Part shown: piece by piece, positions 3,201 through 60,500 of the stretch
Numbering within the stretch: the stretch's first letter is position 1
Layout of the letters: each line of letters opens with the position of its first letter
NCBI GenBank assembly: GCA_963669155.1
Contig: OZ022584.1
Location: 14,982,179-15,046,178, forward strand
Source of the DNA: Arbacia lixula
Taxonomy: Eukaryota; Echinodermata; Echinoidea; Arbacioida; Arbaciidae
Length of the DNA stretch: 64,000 nt
Direction of reading: 5' to 3'
Translations under genes and position numbers: made by a program
The notes under the pieces: generated by a model
What the model was told of the DNA's origin: nothing
Database searches by the model: none
Seen by the model: the letters and a program-made list of their open reading frames with translations, nothing else

Positions 3201-3850
3201 CAGAGCGAAGCATTGTGTATAAAAAAAATAAATGACGAGTTAAAGGAAGAATATCATTATGATGCAATATAAGATAAAACGATTGGCGATTTGGTGATGT
3301 TTACACTTATACACATGAATGTGAGTAAATATGAATTTTAATATAGTATTGGGCATGTAATGTCTCATTCTTAAAAGTATCAGTGAGAACATAACTTTCT
3401 ACATTCATCTTTTAAATTGCATTCTGCTTTACCTCGCTCAATTTTCTCGATATCGATATCACTGCCTGGAGTCTAATTTTCTTTATGGACGTCACTATGC
3501 GAGTATGTTCGTTGTTTTTTAAGCTCCTTTCCCGAATGACATTTAACAGCATCCCAAGAGCACGTATTTCTTGAAAGACATTTTAATGATGCTTACGTGT
3601 TACTTGTGGAATATTTCAAATAATATCAATGCACAGAAATCCCAAATATACATATAGTCATTTTATCTGGAAAGCGAAGGGGTTAATTTTTAACAGCGGA
3701 ACTTTGTCGCCCAAATCTGACGTGGATATATGGCCTGTAACCCTTCTTGCACCATGCTAACTCGATCATCCACCCGCTTTCCAAGACGCCGAGAGTAAGT
3801 TTATATTGATCTATCTTCCATCAACTCAGAAAATGCTGGGAAACTCAAGC
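211..3850. other. intergenic AT-rich DNA, nothing recognised
   Basis: No open frame here has recognisable protein features. The short frames at 529-711, 1541-1750 and 2816-3013 look random. The only structured element seen is a short (AT)n at 3091-3107, plus a small direct repeat of 'gttcatgttt' near 1040-1060. Confidence 0.5.
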
Positions 3851-6016: not shown

Positions 6017-8950
6017 TTACTGATATCCAGAAAGTAGCATTGTCTTTACAGCTTTCTTGAAAGAAAACATAGACTTTAAAGTTCGAATTTCTGAAGAAAG
6101 AGAGTTCCAAATATCAGGTCCAGTGTGTCTGATAGATTTCAGAGCCATAACCGTTTTTGGATTTTGTAGATGAAATTTATCAGATTGTCTTGTGGGATAA
6201 GAATGTATATCCTTGTTTAGATGAAATAATGAGAAAAAAGAAGATGGCAACTGACCGTTATACAAACGAAACATAAAAAGTGAATTTTGCAAAAAGTTAA
6301 TATCATTTACCTTTAGTGTTTTTAATTCTACAAACAAAGGATCTGAATGGTCCCGATGACCTGAATTGGTACATATACGTATAGCTTTCTTTTGTAGAAG
6401 CAATATACTGTCAGTGTGACTTTTTGTAGTTGCCCAAACAATGTTACAATATGAGATGTTCGATAATATCAATGAATTATAAAGCATAAATAAAATATTC
6501 TTTGGGACATAATACTTAAGCTTACAGAGTATACCAACGTTACGAGATACTTTATCTGAGATGTATTGCACATGAGCATTCCATTTCATATTTTCACTGA
6601 TATATATTCCAAGGAATTTGACACTTTCTTTTTGTTCCAATAATATACCATCCACCATGATATTCAAATGGTGCATTTCATTGTTATGCTTCTTATTATG
6701 AAAATAAATAAAATTTGTCTTTTTTAAGTTGAGTGACAATTTATTGCTCTTAAACCATGTAGATAATTTCGGCAATTCAGTATTAAGAGTTCTTAAAAGC
6801 GACTGAAAATCAGTATTGGAACAAAATACGTTGGTGTCATCGGCGAACAGAATATATTGCAGTAACTTGGTAGAATTTGTAATATCATTTATATACACTA
6901 GAAATAGTAGTGGTCCCAATATCGATCCTTGTGGGACGCCACAATGTATGGGTAAAACTTCAGAGTTTACCGATTCAAAGTATACGTATTGCTGTCTATT
7001 TGATAAATAATTTTCAAACCATTCCAGTGGAATGCCACGAACTCCATAACGATGCAATTTGCGTAAAAGGATAGTGTGATCAAGAGTGTCGAATGCCTTG
7101 CTTAAGTCCATGAACACACCAATGACATGTTTTTGTTCAGCTAAGGCAGTCGACACTCTGTCATACAACTGGGCTAGTGCCATATCAGTAGAATGAAATT
7201 TCCTGAAACCAAATTGGTCATGGTTCAGTATATCATTTTGTAACAAAAAATAATACAGTCTGTTATAAACGAGTCTTTCTATGACTTTAGAAAGACTAGG
7301 AAGAATAGAGATAGGTCGGTAGTTCGAAACAAAAGAAGAGTCATCTTTTTTGTATATTGGAATAACTTTTGCAATTTTACATGCGTTCGGAAATACACCA
7401 GTTGACAACGACAAATTACAAATATGTACTAAAGGTGTCAATATACTCCCAACAATTTGTTTTAAAAGGGACTTGCTCATTTCATCGTGACCACATGTAT
7501 AACTTGATTTTAGAGAATGCACAATATCAAGGATCTCATTAAAATCCGTTGGTTTAAAAAATAATGAATTATCATTTGACGTGCCCAAGTACTGCGAGAA
7601 ATCTGTCAGTGTATGATCAATCTTAGAAGCTTGACTAGGACCAACATTAACAAAGTACTCATTAAAACAACATGCTAGATCTTTAGGATTACAAAACGTT
7701 TGTCCATTATTCGTAATTTGAGATGTTGACATCTTCTTTTTCTTACCAATGACGTCATTAATAATCTTCCAAGTGGCTGACATATTTCCAATAGCATTCT
7801 CAAAAGCTTCCGCATAATACATTCTGCGGGAAAGCCTGATAATCTGTGTGAGTTTATTTCTATACGATTTATATCGATTAACATTATCATTATCAGGATA
7901 CCGTAAACTATTTTTATATAAAATATTTCTTTCCTTAATGGAACGGAAAATTCCCTTTGTTATCCACGGATTTTTGATTTTTTTATTGTTTTTCTTTTCA
8001 ATTGTGGGGATATGTTTGTCAAAATAAGAAAGGAATGTATTCCAGAAGGTGTCATAAGCAATGTTTGGGTCTGCAGAAAGTAAGACATCATCCCATGTTT
8101 CCGTGATTAAATCATCATTGAGTAATGATATATTTTCTAGTGTGAATTTCCGCTTCTTCTTACGTTCTTTTTGCTTAACATAAGAATTCTGTGTGTCGCC
8201 ACAAATGAAAAATATAGGTAAATGGTCAGAAATATCACTATACAAAAGACCAGATTTCGAATAATCCGTGTCAATATTCGTAAAAATATTATCGATCAAC
8301 ATTGATGAGTTAGCCGTAATTCTCGAGGGCTTATCGATTGTAATATTACAAAAATTTGCTCGCAAAATATTGCAAAATTTATTTCTAAGAATGTGCTCTT
8401 CTCTCAAGAGATCAATGTTAAAATCACCCATAATATATACATCTTTGTTTTCTTGATTAATCCGCTCTAATAAAACATCAAAATTATCCAAAAATGAGTT
8501 ACTATCTGTATGAGGGGGCCTGTATATTACACAAAGTATTATATTTTTTCTATTATACATATTAATTTCAACACATGTGCAATCAATTTCATTTCCATTG
8601 TATATCAAATCAGGCCTTTCTTTATACGATAACGTGTCTGATAGGAACAGGGCGACTCCGCCTCCTCGTCCGCATTTCCTATCAGAACGGACAACAGAAT
8701 ACCCATCAATGTTATATAAGGGGGGAGATTTGTCGTTAAGCCATGTTTCTGTGACACCAATAGCGGAGAATTTTATATTTATCATGGACAATAATAATTG
8801 CATGTTTTCATAATTTCTTAACAGACTGCGGGCATTGACATGTAATAAACTGAAAAAATGCTCATTATCAATAAATTCTGAATTGAACTCGTCAGGTAAA
8901 TAATACCGACATTGGACATTTTTATGTAAACATAAATCAATTTCATCCAT
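6017..8950 (-). CDS. LINE ORF2: endonuclease / reverse transcriptase
   Basis: This 977-residue protein would nick target DNA and reverse-transcribe the element RNA at the nick. Residues about 31-250 form an APE-type endonuclease. Visible catalytic and signature residues are N39 (HVNAR), E68 (VTETW), Y143 (YRPPH), D176/N178 (GDFNID), D220-N221 and S241-D242-H243 (SDHLP). Residues about 470-790 are the reverse transcriptase: NYRPIS (543-548), D615 in MDLSKAFD, GVPQGSILGP (671-680), catalytic F702-A-D704-D705, then FLGIYIS (779-785). The C-terminal part has the YPTR...GPDIWNSL signature common to L2/CR1/Rex-type elements. No RNase H or zinc knuckle is evident. An in-frame TGA about 35 bases upstream of the first Met supports this start. 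No stops or frameshifts interrupt it. Base composition is AT-rich, unlike ORF1. Confidence 0.95.
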   Translation of the reverse strand: MDEIDLCLHKNVQCRYYLPDEFNSEFIDNEHFFSLLHVNARSLLRNYENMQLLLSMINIKFSAIGVTETWLNDKSPPLYNIDGYSVVRSDRKCGRGGGVALFLSDTLSYKERPDLIYNGNEIDCTCVEINMYNRKNIILCVIYRPPHTDSNSFLDNFDVLLERINQENKDVYIMGDFNIDLLREEHILRNKFCNILRANFCNITIDKPSRITANSSMLIDNIFTNIDTDYSKSGLLYSDISDHLPIFFICGDTQNSYVKQKERKKKRKFTLENISLLNDDLITETWDDVLLSADPNIAYDTFWNTFLSYFDKHIPTIEKKNNKKIKNPWITKGIFRSIKERNILYKNSLRYPDNDNVNRYKSYRNKLTQIIRLSRRMYYAEAFENAIGNMSATWKIINDVIGKKKKMSTSQITNNGQTFCNPKDLACCFNEYFVNVGPSQASKIDHTLTDFSQYLGTSNDNSLFFKPTDFNEILDIVHSLKSSYTCGHDEMSKSLLKQIVGSILTPLVHICNLSLSTGVFPNACKIAKVIPIYKKDDSSFVSNYRPISILPSLSKVIERLVYNRLYYFLLQNDILNHDQFGFRKFHSTDMALAQLYDRVSTALAEQKHVIGVFMDLSKAFDTLDHTILLRKLHRYGVRGIPLEWFENYLSNRQQYVYFESVNSEVLPIHCGVPQGSILGPLLFLVYINDITNSTKLLQYILFADDTNVFCSNTDFQSLLRTLNTELPKLSTWFKSNKLSLNLKKTNFIYFHNKKHNNEMHHLNIMVDGILLEQKESVKFLGIYISENMKWNAHVQYISDKVSRNVGILCKLKYYVPKNILFMLYNSLILSNISYCNIVWATTKSHTDSILLLQKKAIRICTNSGHRDHSDPLFVELKTLKVNDINFLQNSLFMFRLYNGQLPSSFFSLFHLNKDIHSYPTRQSDKFHLQNPKTVMALKSIRHTGPDIWNSLSSEIRTLKSMFSFKKAVKTMLLSGYQ

Positions 8951-9402
8951 ATTTAAAACAAGAACAACACATGGACCATGTCATGGTCGTGAACATTTGC
9001 TTAACAATTGATGAAAGCAGACAAGAAGAGAAAGAAAGAATAGAGCAAGTCATACAGAGAAAAGATTGTTTACAAATTACTCTCGTGAGTAGTGGCCGCA
9101 TCGGACAATTGGGATCTCACAACAGAGATCGTCGCTATATCAACTCTCCCTGTAGACAATATACAACAGAAGTCAAATGGTATCTTTGGAAATATTCTAT
9201 ATACACAATATACATCATACACAATGAACTATAAACTCAAAATATTTACACATTTGGGGTATAGACAAAGAGATTGACAGAGAAAGAAAGGCAGAGAGGA
9301 GAGGCAGAGAGGTGGATGATCGGGGAGAGATAGAAGTAGACATAAAGAACATGATTATGACATAATTAATGAGTAGCAATACCGTACTCATACCGAAGTG
9401 AT
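8951..9402 (-). other. LINE inter-ORF spacer
   Basis: About 450 bp separate the ORF1 stop from the ORF2 start. It contains stops in all frames checked and a GA-rich stretch at about 9268-9325. How ORF2 would be translated (reinitiation or internal entry) cannot be told from the sequence. Confidence 0.6.
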
Positions 9403-10353
9403 CTAACTGGAGGAAAGGAAGTTGTGCGGGACTCCTGTCCGGTTCCTCCATTTCCCAGCAAAGAAGCGAAGCTTCACGCCGTTCTTGTAGAGCTCCTGAA
9501 CGGCCGCGGACCACTTCCTCTTCTCAGTCAGATCGTCAGCAGTGAGGTCATCTGTCATGAAGTACGCTTCCTTCGCGAGCTTCAGGCGCTGGTTCTTCAT
9601 GATGTCGACTTTCTCGCGGTACGACAGGGTTTTGAAGAGGATGTGCCTGGGCTGATCCTTGGTTGCTTTTCCATCACGGTGCGCTCGTTCTACTTTGATG
9701 TCAAGCCCAAACTTCTCCTTCGCGATTTTCTCGACGAGAGCTGGGCAATCCTCGTCGCAGGTGGTGGACTCGGGTATGCCCACGATGCGGATGTTGTTGC
9801 GCCGTGAAAACCTTTCGCTCTTGTTGATTGCCGAGCTATGCTTCTCCAGTTCCGATCGCAGGGCACCAACCTCCTTTTCCACCTCGCCCATTCTTTTCTC
9901 TAGCTGTTGATTCCTGGCCTCTACCTCCGTCACTCTCCTGCTCTCAAACTCGATCGCCTGTCCCAGATGTGTCTCCACCTGTTTGATGTTCTCTATCAAG
10001 AATTCCACAGCTTTCTTTATCATCCGCTCGAAGTTCTTTGTTGCTTCGTGGAAGTAGCGGGCAATTCCTTCTGGTGAAGTTACGTCAGCTCCATTGTCAT
10101 GCAAATCTATTGATATGTCGGGCACGTCAATGGTATCGGATGCCAAGGGTGCTGCCGCTGCTGCTGAAGTGGTCTCGGGATGGTTGTTTACCCGGGGTGG
10201 GCTGGCGGGCTGAGCTGTGGAGGCTCGTCTTCTTGATAGCGGCATAGAGTTCTTCGGAGAAGGAAGAGTGGCGCCGCGGTTTTCCACTCCAAAATCGCTC
10301 TTCCTGTCTTGCTTTGCCTTCCTTGGCAGCACCTTCCTTGTCTGGGTACTCAT
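9403..10353 (-). CDS. LINE ORF1: coiled-coil RNA-binding protein (L1-ORF1p/Transposase_22-like)
   Basis: This 316-residue protein would coat the element RNA and support target-primed reverse transcription. Residues 1-75 are basic and Ser/Pro/Ala-rich, hence probably disordered. About 100-180 form a heptad-like charged coiled coil. About 183-245 fit an RRM-like domain with the signature FSRRNNIRIVGIPES (182-196) and VERAHRDG (221-228). About 246-310 resemble the ORF1p C-terminal domain. The order matches L1-type ORF1 proteins and the length is near the human L1 ORF1p value. It lies upstream of ORF2 on the same strand. It is clearly more GC-rich than ORF2, which suggests separate evolutionary origin or different codon constraints. 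The frame is intact. Confidence 0.88.
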   Translation of the reverse strand: MSTQTRKVLPRKAKQDRKSDFGVENRGATLPSPKNSMPLSRRRASTAQPASPPRVNNHPETTSAAAAAPLASDTIDVPDISIDLHDNGADVTSPEGIARYFHEATKNFERMIKKAVEFLIENIKQVETHLGQAIEFESRRVTEVEARNQQLEKRMGEVEKEVGALRSELEKHSSAINKSERFSRRNNIRIVGIPESTTCDEDCPALVEKIAKEKFGLDIKVERAHRDGKATKDQPRHILFKTLSYREKVDIMKNQRLKLAKEAYFMTDDLTADDLTEKRKWSAAVQELYKNGVKLRFFAGKWRNRTGVPHNFLSSS

Positions 10354-10575
10354 TCTAATAAGTTGGTATAGGAGGAGTTGTCAATATCAGTATCCAAAGA
10401 TAGATATCCAAATAAGATTCGGGAGAGGTGATAAGGTGACGTGTTACTCGCTGGCGGCCATTGGCTTTGGTACCCTTCAAAACTCGTTTTTCATTCAAAA
10501 TGCAAAAGCTCGTTAACACAACCTTGGAGGACCCCCTGTTATCAAGAATATTACCTATTACATCTCTTAACAAAC
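10354..10575 (-). promoter_or_regulatory. LINE 5' UTR / presumed internal promoter region
   Basis: Sequence directly upstream of the ORF1 start. LINEs of this type carry internal promoters in the 5' UTR (family knowledge); no specific motif was identified. A 72-codon frame at 10355-10573 ends immediately before ORF1 in another phase and is probably chance. The outer edge is approximate. Confidence 0.4.
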
Positions 10576-21025: not shown

Positions 21026-21267
21026 TATACAGCTTACCGAAGTGTGACGTCATATGAGCATATGAGGTGTCAAGACAATTGGCTCTGGACTATGTGAGTA
21101 GAGCAAACAACGGTGATCATAGCGGGACTCTCTTTGAAAGTGCCCGACACTGGCACGGTAGACAATGTCGGACCATTGGAACTCTCTCCTGTCTTGAGCG
21201 ATGTCGTTTAAAAGCAGCAAACCTGCATAACGATGGATATGACGACACCACTCCGGTACTCTATACA
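21026..21267. mobile_element. foldback element C, copy 1 (uninterrupted)
   Basis: Element 21032-21261 has inverted ends: GCTTACCGAAGTG at the left, and GAGTACCGGAGTG as the reverse complement of the right. It is flanked by TATACA on both sides (21026-21031 and 21262-21267), a possible 6-bp target duplication. A second copy at 46.3-47.2 kb is split by a transposon, which makes this copy its reference empty site. Confidence 0.65.
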
Positions 21268-28225: not shown

Positions 28226-28648
28226 TAAACGCTACTGCACTAGTGGCCATTATGCCCATTTCACATGATAATCTCGTCATAACACATATATTGCCTTTTC
28301 CTCTTCTCTTATAATCCTGAAGATTATTAAAAGCATTGAAGACTATTACAGATGTTGAAAATTATAACAGGTAATGAAGTTTATCACAGGTGCAACTACA
28401 GGTCAGGAGTACAGCGGTAATGACCATACGACCCGTAATTATTCTTGGCAGAATCGTTTTTACGTCACGTACCACATGTCCAATGAAGGTTTGCGTTCCG
28501 GACGTGAAAAGACGTGAAGGAAACAACCAGTAAAAACATGAAAGAAGCAAACTAACGATTCACAGACGAAGAAAATCTATCATAATAGTCCGTATTCACA
28601 AGGATAGTGGTAGGGTCCATGCAAGGATGATTGACTTAATAAGTTTGG

Positions 28649-29136
28649 TTAAAGAAAAAGTTCACCCTGAAATTAAGTCGGTTTAAATAAACGCGAAAAC
28701 AAAAAGAGAAACATATTAGTGAAGGTTTGATGAAAATCCGTCAAAGGATAAAAGAGTTATGATATTTTAATGCGTTCATTTTATGACGTCACGAGCGAGG
28801 TACTCTCTTATATGTTTTCTACAAACATTTTTTAAAAATGTCAAATTTGTTAAAAGAATGTGCATTATTTTACTCGTACAATTGATGCATCATTAAAACA
28901 CATTTTCACACACATACCTCCTTAAGAATATTCTTCAAAAACAGAAAAACAGCAATTTAAGGAACCTAACAGCATACAACATATGGGAGAACATCTCGCA
29001 CTTGGCGTCACAAAATTGAAATTTCAAACGATCATAAATTTGTTATTCTTTGACGGAACTTCTTCAAACTTACACTAATAGTTCTTTCGTGTTTATGCAT
29101 TTATTGAAACCAGTTCAGGGTGAAATATCCCTTTAA
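28649..29136. mobile_element. MITE family B, copy 1 (488 bp, TTAA-flanked)
   Basis: Long inverted terminal regions: left TTCACCCTGAAATTAAG..., right ending ...CAGGGTGAAATATCCCTTTAA. TTAA sits at both outer edges. Inner arms also pair (AAATCCGTCAAAGGATAA near the left against TCTTTGACGGAACTT near the right), so the whole element folds on itself. TTAA flanks suggest insertion by a TTAA-specific transposase such as piggyBac or Kolobok (inference). No ORF. Confidence 0.8.
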
Positions 29137-29225
29137 CCTGGATTAATTTCACGAGACGCCAAATAGAACAACAAGAAATAATTATCATTGATCGAATATC
29201 ATTGATTTTGTCCTTTGAATCACTA
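29137..29225 (+). repeat. dispersed repeat, copy 1 (partner at 44.67 kb)
   Basis: GAGACGCCAAATA...ACAA followed by ATCATTGAT.GAATATCATT and GATTTTG matches 44665-44740 in the same orientation. MITE B copy 1 abuts it at the TTAA. Confidence 0.6.
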
Positions 29226-29473: not shown

Positions 29474-30007
29474 AAAAATTAGTTCCCACTAATCTATGTA
29501 AAATCATCCACTAAAAACGAATTTCACATTCGTTTACCGCAATAAAGTCTCATTTTAACTAAAATTTGAAAAAAAAAACCCGCACGCCTCCAATGACGTA
29601 TGAGAAGTCAAAATGCCATAAATGCCAACGGCGTAAATAAAATATTTTACTCACGCCATTCAAACAATACCTCACCAATAGGAACCCCAAAGCTTGTCCG
29701 AGGTTTTTCTGAGTAGCAACAAGTAATAGATTCAAAGTGCATTCCATCCATTGAATCTGAATGACAAGATACAGGTGAATGCAATAACACGTTCCTACGC
29801 AGTTAGGGGGAAAGTTGTGAATACATTACGAAAATGGTCTATTGTTGACTTCCGTACAATCTAAGGAATTTTGACTTCTCATAGTTACTGGAGGCGTGCG
29901 GTTTTTTTTTCAAATTTTCGTCAAAATGAGACTTTATTGCGGCAAACGAATGTAAAATTCGTTTTTAGTGGATAATTTTACATAGTTTGGTGGGAACTAA
30001 TTTTTGG
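29474..30007. mobile_element. foldback element with ~137-bp arms enclosing family A
   Basis: Left arm 29474-29615 (AATTAGTTCCCAC ... CCGCACGCCTCCA ... GAGAAGTCAAAATG). Right arm 29868-30007 is its close inverted copy (TTTTGACTTCTCA ... TGGAGGCGTGCGG ... GTGGGAACTAATTT). The ~250-bp loop is a family A repeat whose relatives elsewhere in this window lack these arms. Arm similarity is high, so the foldback is fairly young or maintained by conversion. Confidence 0.85.
29635..29845 (+). repeat. dispersed repeat family A, copy 1 (inside foldback)
   Basis: Landmarks: CATTCAAACAATACC, CCCCAAAGCTTGTCCGAGG, GAGTAGCAACAA, GTGCATTCCATCCATTGAA, AGATACAGGTGA, CCTACGCAGT, AATACATTACGAAAATGG. The same order is found in four other places in the window. 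Confidence 0.8.
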
Positions 30008-30689: not shown

Positions 30690-30893
30690 TTTATTCACAA
30701 CTTCACCCCCTTACTGCGTAGTAACGCGTTATTACATCCACATGTATACAATCATGTACATGGTATATCGTACTTCAATTCCAATGGGTGGAACGCACCT
30801 TAATTCTGTAAGTTCGTGCTTCCCTGACCAACATCGGACAAGCTTTAGGGTTACCTTGGGTAACGTATTGTTTAAACGGCGTGAATAACATTT
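30690..30893 (-). repeat. dispersed repeat family A, copy 2
   Basis: The reverse strand carries GTTTAAACAATACGTTACC, CCTAAAGCTTGTCCGA, GTGCGTTCCACCCATTGGAA, TAACGCGTTACTACGCAGTA and GTTGTGAATAAACA. It lies about 0.7 kb from copy 1 in the opposite orientation. Confidence 0.75.
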
Positions 30894-30894
30894 G

Positions 30895-32640
30895 AATACA
30901 TAACGAAAATTGTCCATTGGGAAGTGTGGTTGTAGCCTTATTCCTTTCAAGACCCATATTCGTGCAGCGTCACAATCCGATGTGTGCAATGCAGCACTTC
31001 GCATTATCCACGCAACATATACGATATAGTAAAATCAATTGAGAAAGACTATTAATATCGCCCAGGGGGACTACTGGAAAACATATTAAACATAATGTAA
31101 TTGCACTCCTTGCCATTTCCTGCATCACGAGTGCACACAAATTAAATAGAAAACTGAAATTATCTGATCACGCAGCCGTGTTCGCAAAAGCGCTGATCCA
31201 ATCAATATAACACCCCAAGTCACGATACCGCAATAAACATAAAAGTGCAACCAACCGTAGCAGATTCAACGCCTCGCATTAACCCGTAATGTACTATTGT
31301 CGCAGTTGGGAGCTGTTTAAAATACATACGTTTGGCACAGAAAGTGTTAATGGAAACCTTATGATTGCACGTTAAATTCAACCTGTAAGTCTAAGTCCCC
31401 ACCTTTCTCTACCACGTGCCAAGGGCACTTTTTGTTACAAAGTTACGCTGAATGCTGAAATACACGTGCAGGAACAAATACAACGTACAATGTTCCTCTA
31501 ATACGCTGGAAAAGCCATGGAAGTTGCGAAATGTATCCAACCATTTTACCTTCGTGCAACATTTGTGCATTCTTGGAATAAAACAAAACATAGGCTTTAG
31601 AGCCTTACACCACCAATTCCATTGTAATCAATCATATTGTTTCCTCTAAAGAATCTATATACGTCGCTGCAACAACTAGCACGATTACTCACACCGTGCC
31701 AAATGAAATTGCCTATCAAATAAGATGTATGGGACGGTTGTCTGGTCTGCCTTCATGAATAGTGTAAATCACTTAACCTCAGGCTCTTCAAAATTAAAAA
31801 TGGCATATTCTTTGTTTTAGATCAATTATGCTTCACAAATTTTCGAGGTGGTCTGAGTGGGAAGTACGTATCGTGAATCTTATAATTCACTGGTTTTAGG
31901 GGGTTTCTTTTAACAAATGTACATTTTGTTCAAACTGTAACATATCATGTGAAATTTAGCCTCTGGCTGCCATGCATGTATGCTTTCATGAATAAATCGT
32001 GAATTGAATTGAATTGATTGTGCTATTTTTTCGATTTTTTGGCGTAAAGCGCGCTGGAAATAGATTTCATATTTCATATTAACCGTTTCTACGTACATGT
32101 ATCTTCGCAGATAAGTGTGTTTTATTCTTGAAACCAAATATTTAACCTGATTTCGCCGCGAGTTCACATATCGACCTACGTTTTTTCTTCTGTCTGTCTG
32201 TCTGTCTGAACATTTGTTTGGCGTGATAAGAGCACACAGGGAATCTAATGCTGAAGGATGTTACGCACATTAGTAATGGCGTAACATACTTCGAAAACTA
32301 CCCTATCATTGTTACGTAAAAGAAAAACATTTATTTGCTTTGTTAGTATGTCAAAGTCCATTGAGGGGATCAACACATATAAGATAGGTCACCAGTGGCG
32401 CGGATGTGAGGCTTAACACTATCCGTATGACTTTACCGAGAGCGACATCCTAATACGAAATGCAAATACTAGAAGAATATAGGTCAAAGCTTTTATGGCC
32501 ATCGCAGATGGTGTTTTCACACGCTAGTACTCGATGTTGACAAACCAGATGACCACATCGAACATGAAAAAATTCAAAAGAGAGCATAAATCAGCCGTGT
32601 GATAAATGCACATTTTACTGTACCTCTCACGAAGTCATAA
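30895..32640. other. intergenic, with a possible retroelement tail
   Basis: GAATTGAATTGAATTGATTG at about 31993-32012 follows AATAAATC and resembles the pentamer tail of a LINE 3' end. A (CTGT)n run lies at about 32189-32210. No gene recognised. Confidence 0.4.
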
Positions 32641-45217: not shown

Positions 45218-45329
45218 AAACTTGCTCCAGAGCTAACTACGAACTGGTGTATTAACGCTACTGGTTTAGGTATAAATTACACTTCGTGCCGACTCCAATT
45301 CTAACACCTTCCTGGTTAGGGGATGTCAA

Positions 45330-45890
45330 CTTGGAAAGAATGATCTTTAATTCCCTATTTTGTCTCTAAAAGCTTCGTGTCTTATCACATTATTTTGTAT
45401 TTTTTTTTATAAAAACTTAATAGTAACACCATTAAGAAATAGTCTTCTTAAGGATTGAGGAATGATGGAAAAACGCAGATATAAGATCAACTTCTTCCCT
45501 ACAAAATTGACTGATTTCTTCACTTTTTCCGGAATTGTGAGATTCAATCATTGTCAAAATTATATCTTTAAGCTGTGTAAAAATATTAACAATTTCTGCG
45601 TGTATTTGCGTGCCTCTGAGATATTTTACTTAAAAAACTAGTTTATTTTTTTTTTTTTTTTTGGGGGGGGGGGTTGGTATCTGTAATGCTCACAAATGTA
45701 TTGATGCCATAAACAAAACTCTACATTGGTTTTGTTCTCTCTTAGTAGCCGTTGCTACACGATCATGTTCGTAATTGTGAATACACCTGAAAAGCACATG
45801 CTGAGAACACATAACCTTTTGGCGGTGCCAAGTGTGGGTCCAAAGAACATGAAGAAAGAAGATTAACCTCCTTTATGCCTTCCTAAATAG
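45330..45890 (-). mobile_element. DNA transposon family T, copy 2 (inverted, diverged)
   Basis: Read on the minus strand it follows T1 (46413-47137) block for block: TTGGCACCGCC, CTCAGCATGTGCTTTTCA, GTAGCAACGG, GAGAGAACAAAA, GCATCAATAC, AGTAAAATATCTCA, GATTGAATC, TCCGGAAA, GTGAAGAAAT, ATGTGATAAGA and TTTCCAAGTTGAC. A C10-A20-type homopolymer expansion (45642-45673 on plus) replaces a short internal segment. One end beyond the TTGAC block differs from T1, so it is truncated or rearranged. Confidence 0.75.
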
Positions 45891-45904
45891 GCCATTTCCA
45901 TTGT

Positions 45905-46096
45905 GTATGCAAAGTTTACGTACGCCTTTCAAACATTACGTTAACCCCTAAAAGCTTGTCGAGTTGTGTCCGAGTAGCAACAACTAATGATTCAGAGTGC
46001 GTTCCACCCATTAAGACCGAATCGCTAGATACAGATGATCGTAATACCGCATTACTACGCACTTACGGGAAAAGTTTTGAATACATTACGAAAATG
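45905..46096 (+). repeat. dispersed repeat family A, copy 3
   Basis: CTTTCAAACATTACGTTAAC, CCTAAAAGCTTGTCGAG, GAGTAGCAACAACTAATGAT, GTGCGTTCCACCCATTAAGA, CTAGATACAGATGA, TTACTACGCACT, GAATACATTACGAAAATG. This copy keeps an open frame across the core. Confidence 0.78.
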
Positions 46097-46290: not shown

Positions 46291-46300
46291 CCATACAGTG

Positions 46301-47232
46301 CATAAGTGTGACGTGTGAGCATAACTGGCGCTAAACTATGCGGATAGAGCAGGCAGCGGGGATCACAGCTGGAACTCTTATGTTAGGAGTGCCCGACACT
46401 AGCCCGTTAGACCAGGGATATGTTATGGAAGGATATGAAACAACATTCTTTCTTTGAGCCCATGCGTGGCACCGCCGAAAAATTGCGTGGTCTCAGCATG
46501 TGCTTTTCACGTGTTTTAACAATAACGAACACGATTGCGTAGCAACGGTTTCTCAGAGAGAACAAAAGATATGTAGAGTCTTATTTCGCTTGTCCACTTC
46601 TGTTGGATTGCATCAATACTTTTGTGAGGAAAAGCGATATCAGCGAACAAAAATAAACAGTTTTTTAAAGTAAAATATCTCATTTGCACGCAAATTCACG
46701 CAAACTCTGTTAATGAAAATAAGCAGCTTAATATATGATTTTGATAATGATTGAATCCGACATTTCCGGAAATCTCCGGAAAGTGAAGAAATTTGTTAAT
46801 TATGCAAGTAAGAGTATTATCTTATATCTCCGTTTGTGCATCATTCAACAATTATTTAGAAGAAAAACGAATACAGGATCTTTAGAGGTGTTGCCCCTTA
46901 ACTTTCTTGAAAATTACAAAAAAATGTGATAAGAAACACAGCTTCGAGAAACAAAACAGGCAATTAAAGATACTGCTTTCCAAGTTGACGATAGAAAAAT
47001 GACGGTGCCGCGCATGGGACTTCAAAGCATTGCAGTGATTGTGGAATGCTTTTGACATTCATTAGCACGCTTTAGTATCCATACAGATGTTTGAATATAT
47101 TATGGTTGAGTTGTCCCTCCTTCCTAACACATCCCTGGTTAGACATTGGACCAGTAAACCTCTCCTGGAGTGATTTTATTTAGAGCCAGTTGCCTTGACA
47201 ACATGCTCATATGACGACACCACCTCGGTACT
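46301..47232. mobile_element. foldback element C, copy 2, split by transposon T1
   Basis: The left part 46301-46412 aligns with 21040-21155 (GAGTGCCCGACACTAGC; copy 1 has TGCCCGACACTGGC). The right part 47138-47232 aligns with 21157-21261 (ATTGGACCAGTAAACC and ATGACGACACCACCTCGGTA). Removing T1 and one GTTAGAC restores a continuous match to copy 1. Confidence 0.8.
46413..47137 (+). mobile_element. DNA transposon family T, copy 1 (725 bp, non-autonomous)
   Basis: Termini are CAGGGATATGTTATGGAAGG at the left and CAGGGATGTGTTAGGAAGGA as the reverse complement of the right. Identical GTTAGAC flanks lie at 46406-46412 and 47138-47144 (7-bp target-site duplication). The paralogous empty site at 21.15 kb lacks the insert. 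No transposase ORF is present; the 64-codon frame at 46735-46929 is not recognisable. CAGGG termini recall hAT elements, but those normally give 8-bp duplications, so the superfamily is left open. Confidence 0.88.
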
Positions 47233-47244
47233 CTATTACGGTAT

Positions 47245-52499: not shown

Positions 52500-53597
52500 C
52501 CTCCGCATGTCCTTGTTTCAGAATACAGAATGCCACACAATAGGCTTTTGTCGACATTGACCTCCGCATGTCCTTGTTTCAGAATACAGAATGCCACACA
52601 ATAGGCTTTTGTCGACATTGACCACCGCATGTCCTTGTTTCAGAATACAGAATGCCACACAATAGGCTTTTGTCGACATTGACCTCCGCGTGTCCTTGTT
52701 TCAGAATACAGAATGCCACACAATAGGCTTTTGTCGACATTGACCACCGCATGTCCTTGTTTCAGAATACAGAATGCCTCACGATAGGCTTTTGTCGACA
52801 TTGACGTCCGCATGTCCTTGTTTCAGAATACAAAATGCCTCACGATAGGCTTTTGTCAACATTGACGTCCGCATGTCCTTGTTTCAGAATACAGAATGCC
52901 ACACAATAGGCTTTTGTCGACATTGACCTCCGCATGTCCTTGTTTCAGAATACAGAATGCCACACAATAGGCTTTTGTCGACATTGACCTCCGCATGTCC
53001 TTGTTTCAGAATACAGAATGCCACACAATAGGCTTTTGTCGACATTGACCTCCGCGTGTCCTTGTTTCAGAATACAGAACGCCATACAATACGCTTTTGT
53101 CGACATTGACGTCCGCATGTCCTTGTTTCAGAATACAGAATGCCACACAATAGGCTTTTGTCGACATTGACCTCCACATGTCCTTGTTTCAGAATACAGA
53201 ATGCCACACAATAGGCTTTTGTCGACATTGACCTCCGCATGTCCTTGTTTCAGAATACAGAATGCCACACAATAGGCTTTTGTCGACATTAACCTCCGTA
53301 TGTCCTTGTTTCAGAATACAGAATGCCAAACATTAGGCTTTTGTCGACATTGACGTCCGCATGTCCTTGTTTCAGAATACAGAATGCCACACGATAGGCT
53401 TTTGTCGACAATGACCTCCGCATGTCCTTGTTTCAGAATACAAAATGCCACACAATAGGCTTTTGTCGACATTGACCTCCGCATGTCCTTGTTTCAGAAT
53501 ACAGAATGCCACACAATAGGCTTTTGTCGACATTGACCTCCGCGTGTCCTTGTTTCAGAATACAGAATGCCACACAATAGGCTTTTGTCGACAATTG
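52500..53597. repeat. 61-bp tandem satellite, 18 copies
   Basis: Unit: CTCCGCATGTCCTTGTTTCA, GAATACAGAATGCCACACAA, TAGGCTTTTGTCGACATTGAC. Period is exactly 61 bp throughout. Copies are highly similar, with recurrent variants: CTC/CAC/GTC before CGCATG, CGCGTG, CACGATAGG for CACAATAGG, TACAAAATG. Each unit contains a GTCGAC palindrome. One of the three minus-strand frames always has a TGA in TATTCTGA, so no frame stays open beyond three units and it is not coding. The array ends abruptly in unique AT-rich sequence. Confidence 0.97.
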
Positions 53598-53599
53598 AA

Positions 53600-55035: not shown

Positions 55036-57237
55036 TTGCCTAGCTAGCGAAAACCGCAAGAGTCTTCACGAAATTTTTACAAATAATCACTGAGCATTAG
55101 CAAATCCACGTCTAAAGCTACGGATCAGAATGATAATAACAATATGGGTCTTATAACCAGGGTAGCCTTATCAGTGAAAACACTGTTTTTCATGAGCGCC
55201 TTACATCATTCACCCAGTCATTAGAGATCCTACCAGGTCCCCATTTCTCTCCTAGATATGGAGGAGCTGTGCGGATAAAAATGTTTTGCTGAAAAACAAA
55301 ACCCTTACCCTCCTGATTAATAGTCAGAGCAACGATCCGCTACACCACATCATGTCCATGCAAATCGGATCAGTGAGCAAACCAAATACATGTATAGACA
55401 TGAAATAGATGGGCTCGATCATCATGACTAAACAATCATTGCCAAACGCGTGGACGTGGGACGGATTCTGTATCTGATTCGAGCTCTCTTTTCACACTCG
55501 TTTTTAGTATTTTTTTGCAAAAAGGTGGCAGTTAGACTAGCACATAATGTAATTACAAAATTCACGAATACGTTGCATCTCTAACTAGGAACGTAACAAA
55601 ATTACTAAGGATGTGAATATCAGATAATTTGACATCTTGGTAAAAGTATGGCAACATTGCAAAATAAATAGAGAAAGAGAGAAAGAGAGAGAAAGAAGTA
55701 GGGGGTACAGGGCGGGTGAGAAAGAGAGAGGGGGGAAAGATGAGAAGAATTGAAGAGGTTGCGATGGCAATGAAAATCTAGATGCAAAATACAAAGTTAT
55801 AAACACGCCGGATTTTTTATTTTTACTCGATACTTCGGCCACATAACTATACGACTGTCAAACGTGGGTGCTTAAATCGCTTCGTATGAGCTTGCAGAGT
55901 TTATAAAGTGCTATACAAAGAGGGAGGATTCTCAAAAAGAAACACATGTACGATGAAATATATGCTGTCATATTTTTTTTGTTCAAACTCATGTATCTCC
56001 CGGCTTTTCGAATCTCCTCAAATACCGGGATCCTCATGCCATCTGTGGTGAGTGTATCAAAGTTACAGACGACTGTCCCTGACATTCGTTTTGGTAGTGT
56101 TAGTATTTTAAGATACTACGTAACTCCATCCACTGCGTGGTACATAATAAAAATCAGGACATATATTTGAAAGGGAAAAAATCGGAATTATGTTCTAACA
56201 CAACTGAAGACCTAATGATGCAATGCTCTTGAGAGAAAATGTCCGACAAAAGAAAAACAAACTAAAGGTAAGCGAAAATAAACATATGCGATTTAGACAG
56301 GATTTTAAAAACGTACAGCTTTTCACTCTTTAAAAAAAATGTGCTGATACACCTTATTCCATTTACTGATGATGTACAGCCATGCAGCTTAATGTGATAC
56401 GACGAGAAATTCGATCATCTGTAAATATTTAACAATTTGTATTTCCGTTTGGTGAATGGGGTGGAAATTAGATTGTTACTTCACGTAATGTATTCCATGT
56501 TTCATGATTACACTGTAATATAATTGCGTACATTGTTAAAGTACATTATTTCTACAGAGCAGGTGCGTGTTTTAATCATTTATTATATCTGTGTGTCAGG
56601 TGCATGTCTTATAATATGTTACTCCGTCACTAAAGAAATTCATAAATTGACGTGCGTCTGCTCTTTTTAGCCGATTTAGATCCGCAGGGCGTGATGTGTT
56701 TGTGGCGCAGACGAACATAACGATTCGACTTTGAAGTGCAGGTGCCTAAATCACTTCACATTATCAAGGACATCTCAACTAAGTCTCACTTTGTAACATA
56801 AGTAGCATGTGCTCACTATTCCTTCAGGGTATTTTTTAGGGATGTAAGTGCTGTAATACTCAGAAACGCTCTCCATGATACCCCTATCATTACTTTGAGA
56901 TTCTTGTCTTTCCGGATATCCCCGCGGCCCGGATAACTCTTTTCAGCTTTTAAAATGTCTTTAAATACAGCGGATATCGCATTGGAGTGGCGGGTATTAG
57001 TGACAAGGATAAGGCAGGGAGTGTATGAGATTTTAGTAGTAATATGAATTTAATTCTGACACATGAGAGTGACAAGGAATAATGAAACAGGAATATGCGC
57101 CTGGGAAAATAATTGGAACTGTGCAGAGAAGTGGAGTGGATGACTTTCGACATCCACATCCGGTCACATAGAAGAGATGGGAGTTGTTTTCTTAAAGTCT
57201 ATGATTAAAAGCTCAATCGCATGGAATTCTAATAGTT
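55033..57237. other. intergenic, nothing recognised
   Basis: A GA-rich patch lies at about 55668-55740. The frames at 55585-55842, 55858-56085 and 55946-56170 are not recognisable. Confidence 0.4.
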
Positions 57238-57734
57238 TTAAAGGGATGGTTCACCCTGAAGATAAGTTGGTTTCGATAAAAGCAGGGACATGAAAGAAAC
57301 ATATTAGTGAAAATCCGCCAGAGGATAAAAAGTCATGATCTTTTGAAATTTAAATTTTGTGACGTCGTGTGTGAGGTGCTCTTCCATATGTTGTTTACAA
57401 TATAATTACATAAATTGCTCTTTGTCTGTTTTGACAACGGAATGTTTTTTCTTTTATACAGGTATGTGTGTAAAAACGTATTTCTGATGATGGATCAAAT
57501 GCACAAGTAAAAGGATGCATATTTTTCTTTGTAGAAAATGCACATTTTCGGAAAGAAATTGTACACAACATTATGGGAGAGCACCTCGCACGTGACGTCA
57601 CAGAATCAAAACTTTTAAAGGTCGTAACTTTCTTACCCTTTGACGGATTTTCATCAAACCTTCAATAATATGTTTCTTTCATGTGTCTGCTTTTATTGAA
57701 ACAAACATATTTCCAGCGTAAATTATCCCTTTAA
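57238..57734. mobile_element. MITE family B, copy 2 (497 bp, TTAA-flanked)
   Basis: The left end is TTAAAGGGATGGTTCACCCT. The right end reads back as TTAAAGGGATAATTTACGCT. TTAA occurs at both edges (57238-57241 and 57731-57734). Internal AAACATATTAGTGAAAATCC, TTTTGTGACGTC, GTGAGGTGCTCT and their inverted partners match copy 1. No ORF. Confidence 0.82.
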
Positions 57735-58020
57735 ACTTGGTAAAAACGTACACTAATTGACATGTTCGGACCTTGTATGTCTTCCGTGACAAATTGCATG
57801 GACATATACATGTTAGCGATAACTGAGAGCGTAATATGAATTCCTCCATATAGATTTACTGAAATAAAAAAAAAACAACATCGTCGAGCAAAATACTGTC
57901 TCTGTTACAGAGTGAGTCATTGTGGACATGGAACAGAAGCTTCTAATTCAGCCTCGCTCTCATTTTATCTCACATTTATTTTGTTGAATAATATTGCTCA
58001 CTGAACAAAATTGTACATTA

Positions 58021-60269: not shown

Positions 60270-60500
60270 CCGTCAGAAATAAGCCGTTTTCGTAATGTAT
60301 TAATGAGTTCTTCCTCACTGCGTAGTAACGCGTTATGACATCCTACTGTATCTAGTGATTCACTTTCAATTGGTGGAATACACTTTGTATATATTAGCTG
60401 TTGTTCCTCAGACAAACCTCGAACTAGCGTTGGGCAATGTTGGGGTTACCATTAGTAACGCATCGTTTGAACGTCGTTCATTAAAATATGTAAACATAAC
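60270..60500 (-). repeat. dispersed repeat family A, copy 5
   Basis: The reverse strand has GTTCAAACGATGCGTTACTA, GGTAACCCCAACATTG, GTTCGAGGTTTGTC, GTGTATTCCACCAATTGAAA, GTGAATCACTAGATACAGTA, TAACGCGTTACTACGCAGTG, AATACATTACGAAAACGG. It keeps an open frame over the core. Confidence 0.75.

Follow-up and report, generated by a model that had tools for sequence, protein, structure and literature searches.

Transposition of the P type with a 7-bp duplication of the target is documented, in the passages of the literature that we cite, for Drosophila elements only (PMC3276498, PMC4168063). One of these elements, 1360 (Hoppel) of Drosophila melanogaster, is classed in the P superfamily and has target-site duplications (TSDs) of 7 bp in 274 of 279 sites, with the palindromic motif GTTNAAC (PMC3276498). 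Galileo, of the same superfamily, mostly makes 7-bp duplications at GT...AC targets with the consensus GTATTAC or GTANTAC, has many copies lacking transposase, and includes three copies with 8-bp duplications in D. willistoni (PMC4168063). Some Galileo copies have 7-bp flanks that do not match each other (PMC3573991). The P-element of D. melanogaster duplicates 8 bp at the motif GTCCGGAC, and hobo, a hAT element, duplicates 8 bp in 1,196 of 1,198 sites, at the motif GTNCGNAC (PMC3276498). Short terminal and subterminal inverted repeats are also found in P elements, where the transposase sites are spaced differently at one end and at the other (PMC7776569). Finally, non-autonomous DNA transposons (MITEs) that share their ends with P-superfamily elements have been described in another animal, Anopheles gambiae, where their duplications are 8 bp long and autonomous P elements bearing the same termini are known (PMC1562414).

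Here, we analyzed a stretch of 64,000 nucleotides from Arbacia lixula (the window, C9:14982179-15046178), in which one element turned out to belong to a genuine MITE family that was mobile recently and has a constant stagger, of 7 bp in almost all copies examined (Table 1). The inverted ends of this 725-bp element are CAGGGATRTGTTA, and their match extends to ~21 bp if one mismatch and one 1-nt gap are allowed. The subterminal inverted repeat has 16 nt, with a 94% match between its arms. No ORF wholly inside the element exceeds 64 aa among the listed ORFs, and we regard it as a MITE because no coding capacity was found. It has the other traits of such elements as well: it is short, high-copy and homogeneous, with inverted ends and a constant TSD.

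Table 1. Features of the element, its insertion site and its older relative (positions in the window).
Feature	Position	Strand	Remark
Non-autonomous DNA transposon (MITE), 725 bp	46413..47137	+	1 of 40 near-identical copies
Left target-site duplication GTTAGAC	46406..46412	.	
Right target-site duplication GTTAGAC	47138..47144	.	
Left terminal inverted repeat CAGGGATATGTTA	46413..46425	+	
Right terminal inverted repeat CAGGGATGTGTTA, minus-strand reading	47125..47137	-	
Left subterminal inverted repeat CCCATGCGTGGCACCG	46459..46474	+	46 bp inward of left end
Right subterminal inverted repeat	47003..47018	-	119 bp inward of right end
Left half of interrupted host repeat C, left GTTAGAC included	46300..46412	+	
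Right half of interrupted host repeat C, right GTTAGAC included	47138..47236	+	Up to limit of alignment with 21-kb copy
Uninterrupted copy of repeat C (paralogue standing in for the empty site)	21058..21264	+	
Old degenerate relative of the element, ~70% identical, without last ~148 bp	45325..45847	-	E 4.6e-77

A preliminary description of the window had placed a 725-bp element between identical GTTAGAC repeats and had regarded the insertion as resolved by an empty-site paralogue, the uninterrupted copy of repeat C at 21 kb. Both claims hold. The coordinates are exact, and the flanks, once joined with a single GTTAGAC, align with the 21-kb copy at a score of 82, whereas the best of 300 shuffles scores 25.5 and the sequence with the element left in scores 50.5; overall identity is only ~71%. 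The empty site had also been thought to give both the ends of the element and the length of the duplication. As for the length, the score of 82 is the same whether 3, 7 or any number of bases in between are skipped at the right junction. By itself, the paralogue therefore gives a bracket of 3-7 bases for the duplication and does not settle it at 7; the direct repeats and the other copies in the genome do so. The description had overlooked the old relative on the left of the insertion, which is degenerate at both ends, and whose presence means that the element inserted near an older relative from its own wider family, at a distance of ~560 bp.

The surroundings of this relative contain other repeats. 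A dispersed repeat family lies close to it at window 45886-46096 and recurs at 29642-29849, 30692-30918 and 60272-60489. Another transposon-like end, CAGGAAGGTGTTAGAATTGGAGTCGGCACG, is located at window 45314 (minus strand, running left). It is 81% identical over 70 bp to a place on C8 (L095, ~3726), and a second, distinct match covers 67 bp at 90%; its opposite end was not found.

We searched the window's own assembly, which has 606,990,701 bases (607 Mb) in 590 contigs (C1 has 55.6 Mb and C22 has 18.2 Mb), and read with their flanks 40 copies, the best of 2,736 candidates, with scores computed for 40. All 40, the window copy included, are full-length and 99-100% identical. The preliminary description had proposed that duplication lengths be tabulated over many copies, and the outcome is a consistent 7: a perfect 7-bp duplication is present in 38 of these 40 copies and a perfect 8-bp one in none. 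One of the two others (L019) has a 7-bp duplication with one mismatch, GTTTAAC/GCTTAAC, and one (L024) has no duplication, like the Galileo copies with non-matching flanks mentioned above. We then have 12 more pairs of ends, 289-1,467 bp long and mostly diverged (their BLAST pieces are mostly 74-90% identical, one 98%), among which nine have a perfect 7 and none a perfect 8; of the other three, one matches at 6 of 7 positions (L064/L062), one matches at 5 of 7 (L003, 2561-3267) and one has no duplication (L073). These counts bear on the idea that the 7-bp repeat seen here was originally 8 bp long and that one base has since disappeared from a junction. Such an event could be imagined from the window alone, where the paralogue leaves a bracket of several bases, but the copy table refutes it, and we attach a negligible probability to it.

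The consensus is matched exactly by 7 of the 40 copies, with a mean of 1.15 differences per 725 bp (two in the window copy), from which it follows that the family moved recently. Since these copies are the best scoring, and hence the closest to the query, their near-identity is a biased sample that dates the youngest layer only. In one locus (L027), a young copy with the duplication CTTAAAG is nested in an older, 87% identical one; the two pieces of the latter overlap by 6 query bases, which makes it a second resolved insertion. The exact 13-bp end CAGGGATRTGTTA has 4,781 matches in the genome (2,364 + 2,417), against 23 (13 + 10) for the reversed control. Among 100 listed places of this end, all on C1, facing neighbors form 21 pairs of 709-738 bp, 11 of which are exactly 725. 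A 21-base end pattern had no match in viral contigs, and the literature on P elements or MITEs in sea stars held nothing on the present family among the matches listed.

The targets of insertion show a preference: in the 38 perfect duplications, T occupies position 2 in 32, and A occupies positions 5 and 6 in 26 and 25, respectively. When both strands are counted over the 38 sites, the consensus is GTTWAAC, which is palindromic and has the form of the 1360 target. The length of the duplication and the third position of the target favor 1360. The outer GT...AC discriminates weakly, because it is common to the targets of 1360, Galileo, the P-element and hobo; the motif thus separates superfamilies weakly. 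The likeness to 1360 concerns the duplication and the target; the present family differs as a MITE without linked transposase. The likeness to Galileo lies in the 7-bp duplications, the GT...AC target and the many transposase-less copies; Galileo differs by its target consensus, its occasional 8-bp copies and its inverted repeats, which are long and internally repetitive. The MITEs of A. gambiae are similar as animal MITEs tied to P-superfamily ends, but differ by their 8-bp duplications and by their known autonomous elements.

On balance, and with some reserve, we favor a reading in which a P-superfamily transposase of the 1360/Galileo type mobilizes the MITE in trans; both the 7-bp TSD and the palindromic target agree with this branch, and the short terminal plus subterminal inverted repeats are of a kind also seen in P elements. 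We infer cut-and-paste movement in trans by a transposase of the P-superfamily branch that cuts 7 bp apart, as do 1360 and Galileo in Drosophila. A transposase made elsewhere in the genome would bind the ends of the MITE, excise it and insert it at staggered cuts 7 bp apart, with a preference for palindromic GTTWAAC-like targets. Repair of the gaps would then yield the 7-bp duplication.

The genome does encode P-type transposases. The domain PF12017 has 19 matches, 10 of which are in open frames of 778-982 codons, and PF21789 has 18. Two P-type proteins, one from each of two families (P-A and P-B), carry PF12017 together with PF21787-21789. The P-A protein, a transposase of 784 aa, has a match of 8e-47 to 6p5a, a structure of the P-element transposase, and the 3.16-kb loci of four copies are 100% identical; the family looks recently mobile. 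P-A was observed at six loci (L053-L056, L060 and L061, on C5, C10, C14 and C56), with an uninterrupted 784-aa frame in four places, and more than 11 kb are common to C5 and C14 at 99.7%.

The copies of P-B are 98-99% identical. One of them, at C5:5478750-5488780 (L065+L063+L067), spans ~10 kb with the inverted ends CATAGAGCTATATTTAAACAC in both orientations. At the one copy with both ends read, on C5, P-B ends in CATAGAGCTATA and is flanked on both sides by the 8-bp duplication TCACGGAC; these ends and this duplication rule it out as the autonomous partner. A MITE-like end beside the P-B gene is the end of a 707-bp, 87%-identical MITE copy with flanks caaatac/gaaatac, which lies inside each of the two P-B copies that were read completely, those on C10 and C5; its end is also present in a third one (L085). 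The genome is therefore home to a P element with 8-bp duplications as well as to the 7-bp MITE.

An autonomous partner with the same termini, which the preliminary description had suggested looking for, was sought at P and hAT loci. Transposase genes of both kinds are present, and none is framed by these ends in the flanks examined. At the 19 PF12017 loci, with flanks of 1.5 kb and up to two mismatches to CAGGGATRTGTTA, there are two single sites with two mismatches, neither in a facing pair. At the 12 PF21789 loci that were read (of the 18 matches), the sole match to CAGGGATRTGTTA is the end of a MITE copy that adjoins one of the genes. No facing pair of MITE ends accompanies the low-scoring P-domain places on C2, C6, C8 and C20, and the one on C8 has a related single end, CAGGAAGGTGTTA. 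In the flanks fetched, none of the P loci examined thus has a transposase framed by MITE ends; most of these flanks measure 1.5 kb, and for 6 of the 18 PF21789 matches the reading covered parts at most, which means that a partner whose ends lie far from its gene would escape detection.

Searching from the ends gave similar results. Ends that continue into non-MITE bases were counted at 79 + 76 places in the genome, against 10 + 9 in the control, and the first 100 places listed include no facing pair 2-10 kb apart. Four facing combinations of CAGGGATRTGTTA lie 2-10 kb apart among the 100 places listed, and the one that was read whole, C1:7320266-7323317, contains two MITE copies. On C1, eight stretches in which the ends are clustered or unusually spaced all contain MITE copies, with a longest open frame of 189 codons. 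In one locus, the internal sequence next to an end differs (L072, end at 3518). As the partner was not found, membership of the P superfamily, of an aberrant hAT lineage or of something else is not proven, and two other origins keep some probability.

The ends of the MITE begin with CAGGG, which is typical of hAT elements, whose ends are short and inverted, start with CA and are G-rich. The element might thus be a MITE of the hAT superfamily, mobilized by a lineage of transposases with cuts spaced by 7 bp rather than 8. The genome has hAT genes (21 matches of PF05699), and the ends CAGGGATRTGTTA are inverted, G-rich and start with CA. The hobo target is likewise of the form GT...AC, but hobo makes 8-bp duplications almost without exception (PMC3276498), whereas an 8-bp TSD is found in 0/40 and 0/12 of our copies. 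In two hAT families, moreover, between-copy identity stops at ...GGCAGCTCTG and ...GGCTTAG, which is not the MITE end, an observation that concerns the 3' side of 5 of the 21 PF05699 places; on these 3' sides, no MITE end within two mismatches frames the gene. We consider a hAT origin unlikely, if still credible. The preliminary description had called 7 bp unusual for hAT and had invoked another or even undescribed superfamily. Its doubt about a plain hAT element is borne out by 7 bp in nearly every copy, but an undescribed superfamily is needless, because 1360 and Galileo are documented makers of 7-bp duplications within the P superfamily and the target agrees with that of 1360. For the same reason, its rule that 8 bp would indicate hAT or P was incomplete.

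A transposon of some other superfamily with 7-bp duplications, described or not, seems less probable still. Such an origin would fit the lack of a partner among the P and hAT loci examined, and there are precedents for the length: Dada makes duplications of 6-7 bp (PMC3706591), and an uncharacterized inverted-repeat element of 923-936 bp in root-knot nematodes has 7-bp duplications (PMC3169594). Yet, Dada-U6 and Dada-U1 are described without terminal inverted repeats, and the Dada elements with definable ends lie in small RNA genes (PMC3706591). The MITE has clear inverted ends and the whole window contains no Rfam family at the gathering threshold and no tRNA, which rules out Dada. Tm1, of the Mutator/Foldback type, makes mostly 9-bp duplications (PMC3169594), and the target motif of the MITE agrees with a known P-superfamily element. 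One may also conceive that the transposase of the MITE comes from a lineage that is neither classical P nor classical hAT, in which CAGGG ends like those of hAT go together with a strict stagger of 7 bp, and that it is active in this animal now or was until very recently; we regard this as rather improbable.

One insertion and its paralogous empty site in raw sequence have thus led to a rule for the spacing of transposon cuts, tested on 52 end pairs. If the assignment to the P superfamily is true, 7-bp P-type transposition also occurs in another, probably distant, animal, whose genome has a P element with 8-bp duplications as well. What underlies a stagger of 7 rather than 8 could then be compared within one host.

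The window contains several other repeated sequences. A non-LTR retrotransposon occupies positions 6017-8980 and 9403-10380, both on the minus strand, with an open frame of 987 codons that has endonuclease and reverse transcriptase domains and an adjoining frame of 325 codons that has coiled-coil-type matches. A tandem array at 52500-53598 has a unit of ~61 bp, with repeats ~95-98% alike. Finally, related foldback-type repeats are located at 28647-29139 and 57237-57735, the second of which matches its own reverse complement over ~500 bp.
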